DNA of 64,000 nucleotides from Saccharopolyspora elongata (GTDB lineage: Bacteria; Actinomycetota; Actinomycetes; Mycobacteriales; Pseudonocardiaceae), in contig NZ_SMKW01000006.1 of the NCBI RefSeq assembly GCF_004348985.1, positions 62,001 through 126,000 of the forward strand, in the 5' to 3' direction. A model generated the notes under the pieces. It saw only the letters and a list, made by a program, of their open reading frames with translations, had not been told where the DNA came from and made no database searches. Made by a program: the position numbers and the translations under genes. Position 1 is the stretch's first letter. Each line of letters begins with the position of its first letter. Positions 3,724-64,000 of this stretch are shown here, piece after piece.

Positions 3724-3765
3724 CGGTGGGGACCGCAGTTTCAATTGAAACTGCGGTCCCCACCG
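3724..3765. terminator. 42-bp perfect palindrome after phnD (family B core)
   Basis: A perfect palindrome centred on CAATTG at 3742-3747, with arms of 21 bases. The core GTTTCAATTGAAAC matches family B elements elsewhere (63126-63139). It starts 12 bases after the phnD stop and probably ends or attenuates that transcript, although no T-run follows. Confidence 0.65.
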
Positions 3766-4598: not shown

Positions 4599-5011
4599 AC
4601 AGGGAACAGCGTGCCGCGCTGCTCGCCGCGGCCGAACCGGCCGAGGTGATCGAGCTGGCCGATGCCTGCCTGGAGGCGGCGCCGCCGCCGAAGGTGCTGG
4701 TGCCGCCGGAGGTCGGCTGCGTGTCGGTGCAGGTGCGGGAGCCGATCGTGCGGGACCGGTTCCTGCTCGGCGACGTGCTCGCCTGCCGCGCCGAGGTGGA
4801 GCTGGACGGTGCACGTGGCTGGGCGATGCGGCTCGGCGACGACCGGGCCGCCGCGCTGGCCGCGGCGATCCTCGACGCCGCCGTGGAATCCGGCCGGGCG
4901 CGGGCCGAGGTCGAACAGCTCTGCGCGCGGGTCGCGGAGCGGCAGCGGCTGGCCGAGGACACCGAGTGGGCCGAACTGGCCCCGACGATCGTCGAGTTCG
5001 AGGAATTGTGA
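4595..5011 (+). CDS. phnG: C-P lyase core subunit PhnG
   Basis: A 138-residue PhnG. In Escherichia coli, PhnG forms the PhnGHIJ core complex and with PhnI and PhnH couples ATP to the phosphonate to give ribose 1-phosphonate triphosphate. Family hallmarks are the N-terminal QRAALLAAAEPAEVIELA and the segment GDVLACRAEVELDG followed by GWAMRLGDDRAAALAAAILDAA. The GTG start at 4595 overlaps the phnF stop (GTGA) and its own stop overlaps the phnH ATG. It is slightly shorter than the 150-residue E. coli protein. Confidence 0.9.
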   Translation: MNREQRAALLAAAEPAEVIELADACLEAAPPPKVLVPPEVGCVSVQVREPIVRDRFLLGDVLACRAEVELDGARGWAMRLGDDRAAALAAAILDAAVESGRARAEVEQLCARVAERQRLAEDTEWAELAPTIVEFEEL

Positions 5012-5595
5012 TGACTGCGACCGCTTCCTTGTCGCCCAAGCAGGCGCAACTGGTCTTCCGCGCCGTGCTGGACGCCCTGTCCCGCCCGGGCGAGGTGCTC
5101 CGGTTTCCCGCAATTTCCATTGAAATTGGACCTTCGATTTCAATGGAAATTGCGGATCCCCGGGTTCCGGAGGCGTTGTTGCCGGTGCTGGCGCTGGCCG
5201 ACCTGGACACCCCCGTGCACGTCGATGACTGCGCCGACGTCGTCCGCACCCAGACCTCCGCGCCGATCGTCGACCGCCCCACCGCGCGCCTGGCGGCGCT
5301 GCTCAGGCCGCTCGACGACCTGGCCGGATTCCGCGTCGGAAGCGCTGCCGCGCCCGAAGACGCCGCGCTGATTTCCCTTGCCGTGGAAGGTTTCGGCCGC
5401 GGTCGGCCGCTGCGGCTGGCCGGGCCGGGCGTGCCGGGCCGCCGCGAGCTGCGCGTCGCCGGCCTGCCCGCCGACTTCGTCGCGCAGCGGCGGGACCTGA
5501 TCTCCTTCCCGGCCGGTTTCGACCTGCTGCTGGTCGCCCCCGGCGGGGAGCTGGTCGGGCTGCCGCGCTCCACCCGAGTCGAGGAAGGTGCCTGA
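5011..5595 (+). CDS. phnH: C-P lyase subunit PhnH with an in-frame family B repeat insertion
   Basis: A 194-residue PhnH, core-complex subunit of the carbon-phosphorus lyase with a PLP-transferase-like fold. The start LSPKQAQLVFRAVLDALSRPGEV and the block ALADLDTPVHVDD are recognisable. Between them, residues 34-48 (AISIEIGPSISMEIA) are encoded entirely by a 48-bp palindromic repeat at 5108-5155 identical to non-coding DNA at 63236-63283. The reading frame passes through it without a stop. The insertion lies in what should be a loop, so the protein is probably still functional. The ATG overlaps the phnG stop and the TGA overlaps the phnI ATG. Confidence 0.9.
   Translation: MTATASLSPKQAQLVFRAVLDALSRPGEVLRFPAISIEIGPSISMEIADPRVPEALLPVLALADLDTPVHVDDCADVVRTQTSAPIVDRPTARLAALLRPLDDLAGFRVGSAAAPEDAALISLAVEGFGRGRPLRLAGPGVPGRRELRVAGLPADFVAQRRDLISFPAGFDLLLVAPGGELVGLPRSTRVEEGA
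5108..5155. repeat. Family B 48-bp inverted-repeat element inside phnH
   Basis: A 19-bp perfect inverted repeat (5108-5126 and 5137-5155) flanks the 10-base loop TGGACCTTCG. Each arm contains CAATTTCCATTGAAAT, itself near palindromic. All 48 bases equal those at 63236-63283. The element is translated as part of PhnH. Confidence 0.95.
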
Positions 5596-6764
5596 TGGGA
5601 TATTCCGGAGTCCGCGGCGGGATGAACGCCATCCTCGCCGCCGAGCGGCTGGTGCGCCGGTCGCGGGACCACGCCCCGGCGGAGTGGGCGAGCACCGAGC
5701 AGATCGTGCTGCGGTTCCGCCTGGCCGTCGACCGGATCATGGGCGAGGCGGGCCTGTACGACCCGCCGACCGCCGCCGACGCGTTCCGGCAGGCCGAGGG
5801 CGACGTGCTGGAGGCCGCGCACCTCGTGCGGGCGCACCGGTCGACGCTGCCGAGGCTGGCGGTCACCGAGCCCGTCGACCCGGACGAGATGGTGGTGCTG
5901 CGCCGCATCGTCCCGGCCCACCGCACCCCGGACGGCCCGCAGCTGCTGGGCCGCACCACCGACTACACCGGCCGCCTCTTGGAGCGCCCGGCCGGAGAGC
6001 AGGGCGACGATTTCGCGCGAAATCACCGTCCCGCAGGCGTGGAGAGCGACGATTTCGCGCGAAATCGCCACGAGGCGGAGCAGGAGCGACCGGCCGAGCG
6101 CACGCCGGAGCAGCGGCAGCCGCGCCGGTTCTACCAGCTGCTCCGCGACCTGGACCTGGTCGTCGAGCACGGCGAGCCGGCCGAGGACCCCGAGCCGTTC
6201 GACATCACCCGGCGGGCCGCCCGCCCGCCGGCGCCGCGCTCGGCGGTGCTCTCCAGCATGGCCCGCGCGGAGACCGGTGCGCTGGTCGGGCTCTGGTACC
6301 GGTCGATCCTCGGGCCCGACGGCGACGTCCACGAGATCACCCTCGGCGACACCCGGCACGGCCGCGTGCCGCTGCGGGTCGTGCACCCGCACACCGGGAA
6401 ACCGGTGGAGATCGGGCAGATCCGGGTGACCGAGGCGGAGGGCATCGAGGACCTCGACGGCGCCGACGAGGACCGCACCCGGTTCGACGTCGGCTACGGG
6501 CTCTGCTTCGGGCACAACGAGCGCAAGGCGATCGCGATGGCCAACCTGGACATCGCCTGGCGCCGCGCCGCGCCGGACAGCCCGCTGGAACAGCTGCTGC
6601 TGCTCACCACCGACGGGCTGGATTCCGGCGGCTTCCTGGAGCACCTCAAGCTGCCGCACTACGTGACGTTCCGGTCCATGGTGGACCGCAAGCTCGCCCG
6701 GCGGACGGCGCGGAACTCGACCGAGCCGCGCGTGCCGGAGCCGTTCGGGGAGGAGTGCCGATGA
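5595..6764 (+). CDS. phnI: C-P lyase subunit PhnI with an in-frame family A repeat insertion
   Basis: A 389-residue PhnI, the core subunit that acts as purine nucleosidase and, with PhnGHL, forms the triphosphate-ribose phosphonate. It opens with the typical GYSGVRGGMNAILAAERLV and has the conserved LGDTRHGRVPLRVVHPHTG and GLCFGHNERKAIAMANLD blocks. Residues about 137-158 (GDDFARNHRPAGVE, then SDDFARNR) are encoded by two family A palindromes 42 bp apart. This is a 14-codon period, so the frame is kept. E. coli PhnI has 354 residues, so the insertion explains much of the excess. The ATG overlaps the phnH stop and the stop overlaps phnJK. Confidence 0.92.
   Translation: MGYSGVRGGMNAILAAERLVRRSRDHAPAEWASTEQIVLRFRLAVDRIMGEAGLYDPPTAADAFRQAEGDVLEAAHLVRAHRSTLPRLAVTEPVDPDEMVVLRRIVPAHRTPDGPQLLGRTTDYTGRLLERPAGEQGDDFARNHRPAGVESDDFARNRHEAEQERPAERTPEQRQPRRFYQLLRDLDLVVEHGEPAEDPEPFDITRRAARPPAPRSAVLSSMARAETGALVGLWYRSILGPDGDVHEITLGDTRHGRVPLRVVHPHTGKPVEIGQIRVTEAEGIEDLDGADEDRTRFDVGYGLCFGHNERKAIAMANLDIAWRRAAPDSPLEQLLLLTTDGLDSGGFLEHLKLPHYVTFRSMVDRKLARRTARNSTEPRVPEPFGEECR
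6009..6067. repeat. Family A palindrome pair inside phnI
   Basis: GATTTCGCGCGAAATC occurs at 6009-6024 and again at 6051-6066, 42 bp apart, separated by a spacer like those of the non-coding copies (compare 70-99). It is read in the frame that gives DFARN twice. All three forward frames of the core are free of stop codons. Confidence 0.93.
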
Positions 6765-16448: not shown

Positions 16449-16494
16449 CTCGTGAGTACTTTGGATCGCCATAGCGGATCAAAACGCTCACGAG
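16449..16494. repeat. Family D hairpin in the regulator leader
   Basis: An imperfect 46-bp palindrome with ends CTCGTGAG/CTCACGAG and the family loop CGCCATAGCG. It lies between the second operator and the regulator start, so it would be in the 5' leader of that transcript. Confidence 0.75.
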
Positions 16495-17231: not shown

Positions 17232-17296
17232 AAGCCGCGTCCTAGAGGTCGTTTCAGAATGCCCGCGTGGCGCCGTGACGACCTGGCGCATGCGTT

Positions 17297-17357
17297 GATT
17301 TCGCGCGAAATCGGCGTCCCTCGTGAGGGCGGGGTGGCGATTTCACGCGAAATCGCC
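17297..17357. repeat. Family A palindrome pair in a convergent gap
   Basis: Cores start at 17299 (TTTCGCGCGAAA) and 17341 (TTTCACGCGAAA), 42 bp apart. The second copy carries one substitution in the core. They lie between the convergent GntR and luciferase-like genes and may serve as a two-way terminator. Confidence 0.85.
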
Positions 17358-17395
17358 CTCGGCCGAGCATTCCCGGAGCTTTCCGAAACGACTCC

Positions 17396-19177: not shown

Positions 19178-19221
19178 GCAATTTCAATGGAAATCGGACC
19201 CGCAATTTCCATTGAAATTGC
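19178..19221. repeat. Family B inverted pair in a convergent gap
   Basis: Arms GCAATTTCAATGGAAAT (19178-19194) and ATTTCCATTGAAATTGC (19205-19221) are perfect inverted repeats with a 10-base spacer, the same layout as the element in phnH. It lies between tetR and the convergent membrane-protein gene. Confidence 0.9.
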
Positions 19222-32888: not shown

Positions 32889-32954
32889 CGCCGTTTTCGC
32901 GCGAAAACGGCGTTCTGCACGCCTGGGGGATGGCGGTTTCGCGCGAAAACGGCG
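32889..32954. repeat. Family A palindrome pair
   Basis: A perfect 24-bp palindrome (32889-32912) and an imperfect copy (32932-32954) with cores at 32895 and 32937, 42 bp apart. They lie in the 586-bp non-coding stretch 32636-33221, in which I find no gene; the remainder holds the two hairpins at 33098-33205. Confidence 0.88.
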
Positions 32955-33097
32955 CCCGGCACCACGCCGCCACCGAAGTGGCGTCGCCACTGGGGAGACG
33001 GAAATCCACCCGCGCCGCGTCCCAGGTGGCCTTCTAGAGCGAGGACGCGTCGAAGATCACTGGCACGCGGCGGAGATGCACCTGATCGGGCTAAGCG

Positions 33098-43855: not shown

Positions 43856-45399
43856 AGCGCCTCCGCATCGAGGGTTCCGGTCCGCAGCCGCTTCGCGATC
43901 AGGGCGCGAGCGGGCTTGCCGGACGCGGTCCGGGGCAGCTCCCGCACCGCCAGCCAGCGCCGGGGGCGTTTCGCCGGACCCAGCGCGTTGCGGGCCCGCG
44001 CGCGGAGTTCGCGCAGCGACGGTGGTGTTGCCGGGTCGATCTCGACGACGGCGGTGACGAGCTCGCCGAGCCTCGGATGCGGGCTGGCGCAAACGAGCAC
44101 GTCAAGCACGCCCTCGGCGCCGCGCAGCACCGATTCGACCTCCTCCGCGCCCACGATCCGGGCGCCGGTGTTGATCGCCGAGCCGAGGCGGCCGAGAACC
44201 TCCAGCGACCCATCGGCGTGCCGCACGGCGCGATCGCCGACGGTCGACCAGCCGTCCTCGGTCGTCGCGGGCACGATCGCCCCGTCGCGGAGGTAGCCGT
44301 CGAAGACCAGGTCGGAGCGCACCCACAGCTCGCCGACGCCGCCCACGAGATCGCGCACGTCCACGTCGACGACCGGCCGCAGCGAACCGCCGCGCCGAAC
44401 GGCGATCAGCGAATGCTCGGCCGATCCGTAGTACTCGACGAGCTCGCACCCGGGAAGCGCCTTGGCGAGCCGTTCCGCCAATGAGTCGTCCACGCGGGCC
44501 CCGCCGCAAACGACCACGCGCAAACCGCATTCGGCCCGCAACACCGGATCACGCTCCAAAGTGGACACGAGAGCGGAGAGCATCGCGGGCACCAGGTGGA
44601 CCGCGGTGGCCCGTCGCGAAGCGGCGGCCGCACCGGCGGCGGACCATTTGTCCAGCAGTTCGACGTCGGCGCCCTCGTGGAGCGCGTGCAACGCGCCGAA
44701 GAGGAACAACGACGAACTCAGCGGACCGGGGATCAGTACGCGATCCGACGAGCTCAAGGGCAGGCCGAGCGCGGCGAAGCTGCGCAGCCACGACCGCCGA
44801 GACCGGATCAGCACCTTCGGTGACCCGCTGCTGCCGGAGGTGGTGGGCAGGTAGAAGTGCGTGCGCTCCGTGTCGGCCGGCGTTGAGCCGGTGCGGTGAA
44901 CGGCCTGTTCGTTCCGGTTGGCGAGGTGAACGGTCCGTTCGCTCGGTTCGGTTGTGGAGTGAACGCCCTGTTCGTCTCGGTTGGTGGCGTGAACGGTCCG
45001 TTCGCTCGGTTCGGTTGAGCGGGTGGCTTGTTCGCCTCCGTAGGTGGGGTGAACGGCCCGTTCGTTCCGGTAGGTGGCGTGAACGGTCCGTTCGCTCTCG
45101 TCTGCGGTTGGCGGCTCGTCCAGGTTCAGCACGAGATCCGGGCGGGCGTCGGCGAGAACCGCCGCGCGGTCTGCTTCAGTCCAGGTGGGTTCCGCGAGCA
45201 GGGTTGCGCAGCCCGCGAGATCTGCACCGAGGAAGTGGGTCAAGCGCGTCAGCGCGTCCCCTCCGTCGAAGGCGACCCTGGAGCCGTGCGGCAGGAGCCG
45301 CGCAGCGCGGCAGGCCCGCGCGAGCAGCTCCTGAGCGTCCAGCGTCGTTCCGGCGTGCGCGACCCGCGAAGCGGGGGAGCGGCCGAGGATCGGCAGCAC
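43852..45399 (-). CDS. AMP-forming acyl-CoA ligase with a repeat-encoded insertion
   Basis: A 515-residue ANL-family adenylate-forming enzyme. After a short N-terminal part (to about residue 95) comes about 70 residues encoded by family F repeats (ERTVHATYRNERAVH and variants), then the P-loop-like motif YLPTTSGSSGSPKVLIRS, VEYYGSAEHSL (A5), WSTVGDRAV (A7) and the C-terminal Lys in LPRTASGKPARALI. The GTG at 45399 lies 2 bases after the bioY stop. It resembles YhfT of B. subtilis; a fatty or dicarboxylic acid substrate is inferred. The insert falls in a loop and leaves all catalytic motifs intact. Confidence 0.87.
   Translation of the reverse strand: MLPILGRSPASRVAHAGTTLDAQELLARACRAARLLPHGSRVAFDGGDALTRLTHFLGADLAGCATLLAEPTWTEADRAAVLADARPDLVLNLDEPPTADESERTVHATYRNERAVHPTYGGEQATRSTEPSERTVHATNRDEQGVHSTTEPSERTVHLANRNEQAVHRTGSTPADTERTHFYLPTTSGSSGSPKVLIRSRRSWLRSFAALGLPLSSSDRVLIPGPLSSSLFLFGALHALHEGADVELLDKWSAAGAAAASRRATAVHLVPAMLSALVSTLERDPVLRAECGLRVVVCGGARVDDSLAERLAKALPGCELVEYYGSAEHSLIAVRRGGSLRPVVDVDVRDLVGGVGELWVRSDLVFDGYLRDGAIVPATTEDGWSTVGDRAVRHADGSLEVLGRLGSAINTGARIVGAEEVESVLRGAEGVLDVLVCASPHPRLGELVTAVVEIDPATPPSLRELRARARNALGPAKRPRRWLAVRELPRTASGKPARALIAKRLRTGTLDAEAL
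44896..45110. repeat. Family F tandem array inside the ligase gene
   Basis: Seven units built round GTGAACGGNCCGTTCG start near 44896, 44926, 44959, 44989, 45022, 45049 and 45079. Spacings of 30, 33, 30, 33, 27 and 30 are all multiples of three. GAACGGNCCGTTC is itself palindromic. Even-numbered units share the tail CTCGGTTCGGTTG. The whole array is translated on the minus strand. Confidence 0.88.
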
Positions 45400-54991: not shown

Positions 54992-55061
54992 CGCCACCGG
55001 GGATCCACCGACCGTCGACAACGCCGCCCCGACGCGCCCGCGGAGGTCACCGAGGCTCCCA

Positions 55062-55205
55062 ATTTTAGGCAAAATCGGGAGCCTCGCGGCGAAGCCGAGC
55101 CGACTGCGGAGGTCGTTGGGTTCCCAATTTTAGGCAAAATTGGGAGCTCTTCGGCGTGGCCGTGTCGCGTGTGGGGGTCGTTGGGTTTCCGATTTTAGGC
55201 AAAAT
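55062..55205. repeat. Family C tandem array (three hairpins)
   Basis: ATTTTAGGCAAAAT occurs at 55062, 55127 and 55192, exactly 65 bp apart, each flanked by pairing bases (CCC/GGG or CC/GG with compensating C-A and T-G changes). Spacers share GGTCGTTGGG. It lies in the convergent gap 54992-55229 between ceramidase and TAXI genes. Confidence 0.9.
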
Positions 55206-55229
55206 TGGGAGTTTTCCCGGGCGGGCGGG

Positions 55230-56141
55230 TCAGCCGTGGAGGTCGCGGTAGGCGCGTTCGGCGCCCGAGTGCAGGGGGACCGCTCCCGTGCTGATCAGGT
55301 TCCGGACGTCCAGGAACTGGGTTCCCACCGTCTGCTGCGGCACCAGAAACGGCGCTCGCAGCACCAGGACCCGGACCACCGCTTCGGCCAGGTCGGCGGG
55401 GAGTTCCGGGGTGCAGGCCAGGATGTTGGGCACGCCGACCGTCGGAGTCCGGCTGGTCCGCCGGTAGGCGCCGGGCGGCACCAGCACCGGGTCGCACAGC
55501 GGCCCGCAGCCGGCCTCCGCCGCATCGAGCGGCAGCAGGCGGATGCCGACCCGGTCGTCGAGCGTCTTGAGCACCGGCGTCGGCAGGCCGCCGGACCACA
55601 GCAGCGCGTCGATCCGGCCGCGTTCCAACGCGTCGATCGCTTCTTCCAGCGGCAGCGATTCGCGGCGCACCCCGGGATGCGCCGCCAGCAGGTGCGCACC
55701 CAGCAACGCCGTCCCGGACTTCGGCGCGCCGATCGACACCGTGCGTTCGGCCAGCTCGGCGAGGCTGTGCACGGGACTGTCGGCCAGCACGACGAGCTGC
55801 GTGTAGTTCTCGTAAACCTGCCCGAGGGCGCGCAGCTGAACCCGGGGGCCGAGATCGCCGTTCTGCGCCGCCGCCGCGGTGTGGGCGAGCACCATGCCCA
55901 GATCGGCCGACCCGTCGCGCAGCAGCTCGACATTGGCGACGCTGCCTTGGCTGCTCAGCACCGGCATCCGCAGCCCGGGCACCGCCGCGGAAACCTCGGC
56001 GGCGAGCTGACCGGCGAAGGCCGTGTAGAAGCCGCCCGGCTCGCCAGCGGCGATGCGCAGCGTGCGCTCGGGCGTCCGCCCGGAGCAGGCGCTGACCAGC
56101 CCTGCACCGGCCAGGGCGAGCAGGGCTCGGCGGCGAATCAC
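55230..56141 (-). CDS. TAXI-family solute receptor lipoprotein
   Basis: A 303-residue TRAP-associated extracytoplasmic (TAXI) receptor, lipobox VSAC with Cys19. The mature part opens RTLRIAAGEPGGFYTAFAGQ, typical of the ligand-binding mouth, and has SIGAPKSGTALLGAHLLAAHPGV. No TRAP permease genes are adjacent. Instead its GTG start overlaps the stop of a histidine kinase gene. I infer it is the ligand-binding partner of that kinase, probably for a carboxylate. Confidence 0.85.
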   Translation of the reverse strand: MIRRRALLALAGAGLVSACSGRTPERTLRIAAGEPGGFYTAFAGQLAAEVSAAVPGLRMPVLSSQGSVANVELLRDGSADLGMVLAHTAAAAQNGDLGPRVQLRALGQVYENYTQLVVLADSPVHSLAELAERTVSIGAPKSGTALLGAHLLAAHPGVRRESLPLEEAIDALERGRIDALLWSGGLPTPVLKTLDDRVGIRLLPLDAAEAGCGPLCDPVLVPPGAYRRTSRTPTVGVPNILACTPELPADLAEAVVRVLVLRAPFLVPQQTVGTQFLDVRNLISTGAVPLHSGAERAYRDLHG

Positions 56142-57511: not shown

Positions 57512-57584
57512 CAGCGGTCACCGAGCCTGGTCACGGGCCGTGAGCACGGCGGCGAATCCGCTGGGCGGCCGTGCAGGGAGGAGC

Positions 57585-57690
57585 GGCGGTTTCGCGCGAA
57601 ATCGCCGACGCGAGTGCCTGGGAGGCGGCGGTTTCGCGCGAAACCGTCATTCCGCGTGCCTGGCGGTGCCGGTTTCGCGCGAAACCGCCG
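57585..57690. repeat. Family A palindrome triplet inside an operon
   Basis: Three cores at 57590, 57632 and 57673 (42 and 41 bp apart), each with GG/CC or GG/TC flanks. This is the only three-copy array in the window. It occupies the 222-bp space between response regulator and kinase genes and would be transcribed, where it could uncouple their expression. Confidence 0.9.
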
Positions 57691-61915: not shown

Positions 61916-63049
<1,134 letters not shown>

Positions 63050-63125: not shown

Positions 63126-63174
63126 GTTTCAATTGAAACCTCTCTCCGAGGGACCGCAATTTCCATTGAAATTG
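63126..63174. repeat. Two single family B palindromes
   Basis: GTTTCAATTGAAAC (63126-63139) and CAATTTCCATTGAAATTG (63157-63174). The first has the core of the phnD terminator at 3724-3765, the second the arm of the 48-bp element. They lie between cysM and the convergent SMP-30 gene. Confidence 0.85.
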
Positions 63175-63235
63175 AAGAAGTTGTCCACACCCTTCGGTGT
63201 GTCGGACCCACGACACGCAGGAGACTGTGGACAAC

Positions 63236-63283
63236 CCGCAATTTCCATTGAAATTGGACCTTCGATTTCAATGGAAATTGCGG
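63236..63283. repeat. Family B 48-bp element identical to the phnH insertion
   Basis: Every base of 63236-63283 equals 5108-5155: 19-bp arms and loop TGGACCTTCG. Here it is non-coding, in the convergent gap just past the SMP-30 stop at 63309. Confidence 0.95.
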
Positions 63284-63308: not shown

Positions 63309-64000
63309 TCAGCCGGTGAAGGCGAAGGGGCGGGTGTCGGTGCCGATGTTCGGGAGGACCAGCAGGGCGCCGTCCGCCGCAGCCGGGTCCTGGACGCCGT
63401 CGCGGGCCGTTGTGACGTACAGGTCCGTGAGGTCCGGGCCGCCGAAGCAGCAGTCCGTCGGGCGGCGCGCCGGCAGCTGGATCGTCCGCTCCAGCTCGCC
63501 TTCCGCGGTGTAGCAGCGGATTTCGCCCCGGTTGCGCACCGCGACCCAGATCCGGCCCGCGTCGTCGACGCACAGGCCGCCCGGTTCGCCGTCGACGTCG
63601 CAGAGCGCCCGGCGGTTGTCGGCAGCACCGGCGACGAGGTCGAAATCCAGCACGTCGATGCGTCGCGCCGCGCCGTCCGACAGGTACATCCGGGTGTCGT
63701 CCGGGCTCCAGCCGATGCCGTGCCCGGCGACCAGGTCGGACACCGCGATCTTCGCCGCGCCGTCCGCCGTCACGCGGGCCAGCCAGCCCCCGGCGCCCAG
63801 CGTCGTCGCCCACAGCCGGCCCTTGCGGTCGATCGTCGTCGCCCCGGCCTGGACGCCCTCGCGGGCCCAGTAGGCCAGCCAGGTGCGCTGTTCACCGCCG
63901 GCGTCGTACAGGGCGATGCCTTCGGCCAGGTGCAGCACGAGCCCGCCGCGGCTGCGCGGTTTCGCGGCACCGACCTGCTGGGGCAACCCCATCACGTGAT
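63309..64000 (-). CDS. SMP-30/gluconolactonase-family protein (5' end beyond the window)
   Basis: At least 228 residues of a beta-propeller lactonase/regucalcin-like protein. GHGIGWSPDDTRMYLSDG, GEPGGLCVDDAGRIWVAVRNRG and RPTDCCFGGPDLTDLYVTTA are the repeating propeller motifs with metal-binding Asn/Asp/Glu positions. Family members have about 270-300 residues and begin with a block containing GEGPxW, absent here. The frame is open to the window edge, so the start lies past 64000. Confidence 0.88.
   Translation of the reverse strand, partial: HVMGLPQQVGAAKPRSRGGLVLHLAEGIALYDAGGEQRTWLAYWAREGVQAGATTIDRKGRLWATTLGAGGWLARVTADGAAKIAVSDLVAGHGIGWSPDDTRMYLSDGAARRIDVLDFDLVAGAADNRRALCDVDGEPGGLCVDDAGRIWVAVRNRGEIRCYTAEGELERTIQLPARRPTDCCFGGPDLTDLYVTTARDGVQDPAAADGALLVLPNIGTDTRPFAFTG

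Follow-up and report, generated by a model that had tools for sequence, protein, structure and literature searches.

The window analysed here is a stretch of 64,000 nucleotides from Saccharopolyspora elongata (contig NZ_SMKW01000006.1, positions 62,001 to 126,000) and harbors a C-P lyase cluster that includes phnG, phnH, phnI and a gene in which phnJ and phnK are fused. The phnH gene, encoding a subunit of C-P lyase, lies on the forward strand at 5011..5595. Within it, at 5108..5155, is found element A, a doublet of two units of TTTCNATNGAAA placed 24 bp apart, with the core type CATT..AATG; this and all other repeats are given without a strand. The element is translated in the phnH frame as AISIEIGPSISMEIA, and on each of its strands two of the three frames are open. 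An earlier note, made from the sequence alone, had described it as repeat DNA kept in frame and in a loop of an otherwise intact gene, a description borne out by the 194 codons without a stop and by a Pfam PhnH match of 116.9 bits over residues 10-191 of the product. The AlphaFold model of PhnH has a mean pLDDT of 87 and a confident core, and corresponds to the E. coli PhnH of the C-P lyase core structure 4xb6. Residues 41-49 fall below a pLDDT of 50, and on the basis of this model the insert would best be regarded as a disordered loop.

The same sequence recurs at 63236..63283, in the intergenic space between convergent genes, where a PLP-enzyme gene ends at 63049 and a reverse gene is called at 63309-63995. 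The two copies, one coding and one intergenic, agree at 48 of 48 bases, as the earlier note had reported, and the match extends by one base to the left and by none to the right. The intergenic copy belongs to a cluster that also contains a related single unit, TTTCAATTGAAA (63127..63138), and a single unit GCAATTTCCATTGAAATTG (63156..63174). The latter forms a composite with the 63236 copy, and between the units of this composite stands an inverted pair of sequences at 63181-63189 and 63226-63234 (TTGTCCACA and TGTGGACAA), both of them DnaA-box-like. Elsewhere in the window, another element A doublet, of the AATG..CATT type, lies between convergent genes at 19178..19221, and a single unit, GCAGTTTCAATTGAAACTGC, at 3735..3754 has a phosphonate-binding-protein gene on one side and a GntR gene on the other. 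With up to three mismatches, the half-unit GCAATTTCCATTGAAATTG has 14 matches on both strands of the window and none in 100 shuffles, and a chance origin of the repeat was rejected on this count.

The window contains further repeats. Another palindromic family, CGTGAGTACTTTG..CGCTATAGCG..CAAAGTACTCACG, is present at 16451, 38200, 41375, 49935 and 59875, and tandem arrays at 55054-55248 and 44891-45106 are made up of 65-bp units with ATTTTAGGCAAAAT, and of GTGAACGGTCCGTTCG repeats. No Rfam family matches within the window at its gathering score.

Size, build and placement of the repeat family

The source genome comprises 10.3 Mb in 277 contigs. The family was surveyed in 1,197,528 bases of it (four whole contigs together with the window), with genes called by a simple codon-usage finder trained on this genome. 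This sample contains 80 occurrences of the core TTTCAATGGAAA, counting its complement, and 25 of TTTCAATTGAAA, where a Markov model predicts close to none (0.00 for the 80). The centres used among 193 occurrences of TTTCNNNNGAAA are AATG (80), GCGC (78), AATT (25) and ACGT (4), with the others found once each. Among 68 gaps between neighbouring units, 42 have a spacing of 24 bp and 13 one of 71-72 bp. The longer form is a composite, and an exact DnaA-box-like TTGTCCACA is present in 14 of the 16 clusters with a gap of 60-100 bp. In the whole genome there are 136 doublets with exact cores, 41 of them CATT..AATG and 95 AATG..CATT. The 44-base core is found exactly three times (twice on contig C228 and once on C190) and, with up to three mismatches, at 55 strand placements, one place being counted on both strands. 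The identity of the two window copies thus stands, but not their treatment as a mere pair, since the element belongs to a large family.

The family is strongly biased in its placement. The 80 AATG-type units are distributed as 40 between convergent genes, 35 between tandem genes, none between divergent genes and five within genes. When counted by cluster, three of 51 are classed as divergent, of which two hold TTTCAATTGAAA units only and the third overlaps the end of a gene. Two of the 51 clusters lie wholly in genes and a third makes the C-terminus of one, an extreme depletion given a coding fraction of 0.853. At C110:141137-141178 (locus L144) of the source genome, the repeat supplies the last codons and the stop of a called gene. 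By its architecture and location, element A is a REP doublet of the REPIN-like kind.

At least eight of the 22 Saccharopolyspora genomes searched contain the family. A looser pattern gave 153 forward matches in S. hirsuta, 147 in S. oryzae, 44 in S. indica, 210 in S. kobensis, 271 in the Saccharopolyspora genome G001, five in S. shandongensis and none in S. soli. Units within called genes number one in 200 kb of S. hirsuta (the phnH site, cut by the end of the stretch), none in 200 kb of G001 and two in 369 kb of S. shandongensis. These last two appear to make up the C-terminal end of a gene called there (C127:149567-150109, L209).

No intact REP-type (RAYT) transposase was recognised in the source genome with the single model employed, Y1_Tnp, by which a diverged enzyme could be missed. 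This profile gave four matches at three loci, all of them split over frames or carrying stops. Each of the 3-kb loci concerned (L197, L198 and L200) also holds an OrfB_IS605 or Cas12f1-like_TNB piece, and they are degraded IS605-like loci in which no element A unit was found. Mobilisation by a RAYT of the source genome was rejected on this one model, the Y1_Tnp pieces being broken and without element units nearby.

The phnH site and other coding copies

An insert of equal length occupies the same place in the PhnH orthologues of S. hirsuta, S. oryzae, S. indica and S. kobensis, and in G001 the repeat at this site has three units and is eight codons longer. Among the 22 genomes of the genus, ten have a PhnH match; six of these carry the insert, one (S. 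shandongensis) has a short remnant and three (S. soli, G012 and G006) are without it. Between the conserved LP and VP there are 18 codons in the source genome, six in S. shandongensis and three in S. soli. The six codons of S. shandongensis look as though the two ends of the element had been brought together, and may represent a deletion scar. On the evidence of a contig that is syntenic with the source genome and has most aligned blocks at 91-97% DNA identity, S. shandongensis is a close sister of the source genome. The placement of S. soli differs between two trees with weak support (61; 32.8/60), so that their conflict fits one gain, or a gain followed by a loss, alike.

PhnH matches above 70% identity come from six of 30 loci, all of them Saccharopolyspora. 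In other genera, 21 of 22 aligned proteins (an alignment that left out L126 and L127 of the 30 loci) are without the insert, and the 22nd, from Pseudonocardia, has an unrelated one. Ancestral protein residues at this site were rejected as an explanation for this reason; the earlier note had named the same residues in distant genera as the finding that would speak against inserted DNA, and they did not appear. The target duplication that it had proposed to look for is not evident by eye in the alignment of phnH with its relatives. The intergenic 63236 site has an orthologue in G001, which is also occupied.

In S. shandongensis, other sequence is lodged inside element A at two orthologous sites (L204 and L202 on contig C127, matching C228:159081 and C228:192017 of the source genome), at one of them with ends resembling GCGGGTTCTCAGA..TCTGAGGTTCCGC. 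Such end motifs lie near an element end in two of ten cases in 369 kb of S. shandongensis and in one of 36 in 1.33 Mb of the source genome, so lodging inside the element is not general. Intact copies of element A are very few in S. shandongensis.

The element is also found in a gene at C205:62155-65001 whose product has SNF2-related and helicase C-terminal domains, and there it is read in another frame (QFQWKLDLQFQWKLR). The stretch concerned measures 426 bp here and 366 bp in six of six aligned relatives, including S. shandongensis, and from these lengths the 60-bp copy is a recent in-frame insertion. Comparison by eye with the empty site of S. shandongensis, the one clean site, gave no clear target-site duplication, of the kind that marks a MITE, flanking the 60 bp.

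Unrelated palindromes are also found in C-P lyase genes; these phnI and Pseudonocardia cases come from inspection of phn operons alone. In phnI, the gene adjoining phnH, a doublet from a distinct palindromic family, TTTCGCGCGAAA, lies in frame at 6005..6071. Residues related to this insert are present in S. shandongensis, S. indica and S. hirsuta, with a DFARNR-like sequence in the PhnI of the first two. This family has 78 units in the 1.2-Mb sample, of which the two of phnI are in called genes, and in 200 kb of G001 three of three units are in called genes. Further TTTCGCGCGAAA doublets in the window are located at 52-118, 1309-1375, 17293-17359, 32889-32955 and 57584-57650. The unrelated Pseudonocardia insert mentioned above belongs to the PhnH of Pseudonocardia sp. 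TRM90224 (L114:3085-3133) and is likewise a palindromic doublet, CAGGAAAG CCA CTTTCCTG and CAGGAAAG TGG CTTTCCTG 30 bp apart, at the very site of the Saccharopolyspora insert. Imperfect variants of it occur in frame in three other Pseudonocardia loci, about 2.6 kb beyond phnH (L120:5596-5644, L121:5615-5663 and L127:5708-5726). The L121 frame is a 703-codon ORF laid out like the fused PhnJ-PhnK protein of the window, and its doublet looks to be placed in the linker before the ABC part.

Probable homogenisation of old copies

Element copies of the source genome differ from their orthologues at 8-13 of 48 bases. Pairwise comparison of the phnH inserts of the source genome, S. hirsuta, S. oryzae, S. 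indica and S. kobensis gives 7-13 mismatches in 48 bases. For the intergenic copy and its orthologue in G001 the figure is 12 of 48, with three compensated pairs among the differences. The core type of the phnH copy also varies between species, being CATT..AATG in the source genome, AATG..CATT in S. hirsuta and AATT..AATT in S. kobensis. Whole-genome counts of exact cores, in the order source genome, S. hirsuta and S. kobensis, are 41, 1 and 1 for CATT..AATG, 95, 65 and 65 for AATG..CATT, and 0, 0 and 62 for AATT..AATT. The type found in phnH accordingly makes up 41/136, 65/66 and 62/128 of the typed doublets of its own genome, and the CATT..AATG type 1/66 in S. hirsuta and 1/128 in S. kobensis. 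The 38-base phnH cores of S. hirsuta and S. kobensis recur unchanged elsewhere in their own genomes. In S. oryzae, S. indica and G001, the phnH copies keep AATG/CATT cores and contain other changes, such as ATT to AAT.

Orthologous copies are thus divergent, yet in three of six species the phnH copy exactly matches the repeats of its own genome, and the copies seem to have been homogenised. At the third codon position the insert stays AT-rich, with G or C in 3-9 of its 18 codons across five species versus 153-162 of 174-177 (about 90%) in the rest of phnH. Between the source genome and S. hirsuta, the insert (9 of 45 bases) and the remainder of phnH (85 of 528) have diverged to a similar extent, which counts against a simple reading as conservation. 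The earlier note had suggested that perfect identity reflects recent movement or gene conversion; given that the sites of both copies are occupied in sister species, the movement half of this is not supported, and the identity is better read as homogenisation of old copies. Conversion is here deduced from type frequencies. The perfect 48-base match probably reflects copies kept alike and not a recent jump.

The reading that we favor, with a probability of roughly 70%, is that an old doublet in the phnH loop of a Saccharopolyspora ancestor has persisted across several splits between species while copies were homogenised within genomes. According to this scheme, one doublet would have entered a permissive phnH loop long ago and been retained because the loop tolerates around 15 extra residues. 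Within each genome, the copies would since have remained uniform, the likeliest means being gene conversion over short tracts or the displacement of old copies by new ones, as a result of which the coding copy would change along with the non-coding ones and largely keep its hairpin. Where homogenisation lapses, the phnH copy may drift, as in S. oryzae, S. indica and G001, or shorten, as in S. shandongensis. New insertions would still happen, as in the SNF2-helicase gene.

It could instead be argued that selection acts on the hairpin itself, in DNA or RNA, for processing or stability of the phn operon mRNA or as a protein-binding site, and that compensatory substitution rather than conversion produced the differences between species. 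The single strand of the 48-mer folds into one hairpin of 22 pairs (z -9.4, 200 shuffles), and five phnH orthologues retain complementarity between the arms at 19-22 of 24 pairs, compensated changes falling at positions 4, 10, 13 or 19. Of 46 distinct copies, 40 have complementary bases at core positions 10 and 37 (Fisher p ~5e-7, in copies related by descent), and the units avoid divergent gene pairs. The 46 copies comprise 34 from 1.33 Mb sampled regardless of the element and 12 from loci resembling the window copy, so that the types in the set are biased. Double-change cells number 42, compared with a shuffle mean of 29.0 and maximum of 42, counts that are not independent because the copies share descent, and the covariation signal lies mainly in two core pairs. 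Over all pairs, hairpin complementarity is 0.861, barely better than the shuffles (mean 0.848, maximum 0.871). The self-complementarity of each unit, at 0.623, is worse than the shuffle mean of 0.662, which suggests that it is the whole 48-mer, and not its units, that is maintained. The phnH genes of S. soli and S. shandongensis are open without the hairpin, and the types match those common in each genome, for which conversion or replacement is the simpler explanation. We consider selection of this kind an unlikely source of the species differences.

Recent transposition, in which one of the phnH and 63236 copies was lately copied from the other, would account for the 48/48 identity and fits a family that is active, as judged from the SNF2-helicase insertion. 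It is contradicted as a first occupation by the presence of the element at the phnH site in five other species and at the intergenic site in G001; recent transposition into phnH was rejected on these grounds and we hold it to be improbable, a possible variant being that a fresh copy replaced an older one at the same site. It is highly improbable that the units serve as binding sites for a ParB/Noc-like protein: the TTTC NNNN GAAA unit resembles parS and few centres are used among the 193 TTTCNNNNGAAA, but unit self-complementarity falls below that of the shuffles and the source genome has a single ParB_N match, which led us to reject a dedicated ParB paralogue.

Homogenisation of old copies also allows a wider, and quite tentative, proposal. 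An actinobacterial palindromic family without a recognised transposase may homogenise its copies genome-wide and rewrite the PhnH-loop copy along with them, such that, through several speciations, part of a protein would undergo concerted evolution with intergenic DNA. Doublets that are analogous, though not related, may have repeatedly colonised C-P lyase genes (phnH, phnI and the PhnJ-PhnK linker) in Saccharopolyspora and Pseudonocardia. With the phnH element, the range of Rickettsia-like coding palindromes comes to include the high-GC actinobacteria. The phnH site offers a multi-species test of the fate of a translated repeat, which persists, acquires a unit, is shortened, drifts or comes to match the current type of its genome, and concerted evolution of coding and non-coding repeats becomes directly testable. 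A caution also follows, in that recent movement should not be read from perfect identity between two short repeats.

Comparison with known systems

REPs and REPINs, as described by Bertels and Rainey 2011 (PMC3116915) and Di Nocera 2013 (PMC3733652), share with element A the palindromic units, the inverted pairs forming one hairpin, the high copy number, the location in gaps between convergent or same-direction genes and the presence of some copies in genes. Palindromic units of 20-40 bp in high copy correspond here to the 80 AATG-type units in 1.2 Mb, inverted hairpin doublets to the spacing of 24 bp, which holds for 42 of 68 gaps, and to the z of -9.4, and extragenic placement to the 75 units between convergent (40) or tandem (35) genes. 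For the associated RAYT the source genome gave no intact counterpart with Y1_Tnp. Element A also seems to be without the GTAG tag. A centre resembling the other tag, CGTC, recurs often in sister species, but there the stem begins two bases later and the CCA tail described in PMC3733652 is missing. Among the 46 distinct copies the commonest centre is GGACCTTC, and GACGTC is common among the G001 and S. kobensis copies listed. REPs within genes are known from several bacterial groups, according to the main text of PMC3733652, from which the words actinobacteria, Saccharopolyspora and Mycobacterium are absent.

The earlier note knew of no such system in actinobacteria, and a literature search of openly licensed PubMed Central papers likewise showed none. 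The S. erythraea repeats dealt with in PMC3610266 are long inverted repeats.

Coding palindromes that are evolutionarily kept are also described for nematomorph mitochondria in PMC6649704, where template switching is discussed for the concerted evolution of their arms. Those inverted repeats, of up to 284 bp, are found in mitochondrial genes of four animal species, whereas element A belongs to a dispersed and mostly non-coding bacterial family.

The Rickettsia palindromic elements (RPEs) differ from element A in size and setting, being 100-150 bp in length, whereas element A is a mostly intergenic 48-bp repeat of a 10-Mb actinobacterium (PMC3767692 and PMC6649704). They are furthermore reported in the latter to lose their repeat identity with time, whereas the palindrome here is largely kept. 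The likeness that the earlier note had seen is nonetheless sound, for the phnH element is an in-frame translated repeat at a site shared by orthologues. In the same two sources, RPEs are in-frame insertions that spare the gene, occupy the same site in orthologues and lie in exposed parts of proteins, and the same site sometimes holds a different group of elements. PMC3767692 also records Rickettsia genes in which the palindromic group differs from species to species at neighbouring positions of a single gene, much as the PhnH proteins of Saccharopolyspora and Pseudonocardia hold unrelated doublets at one site.
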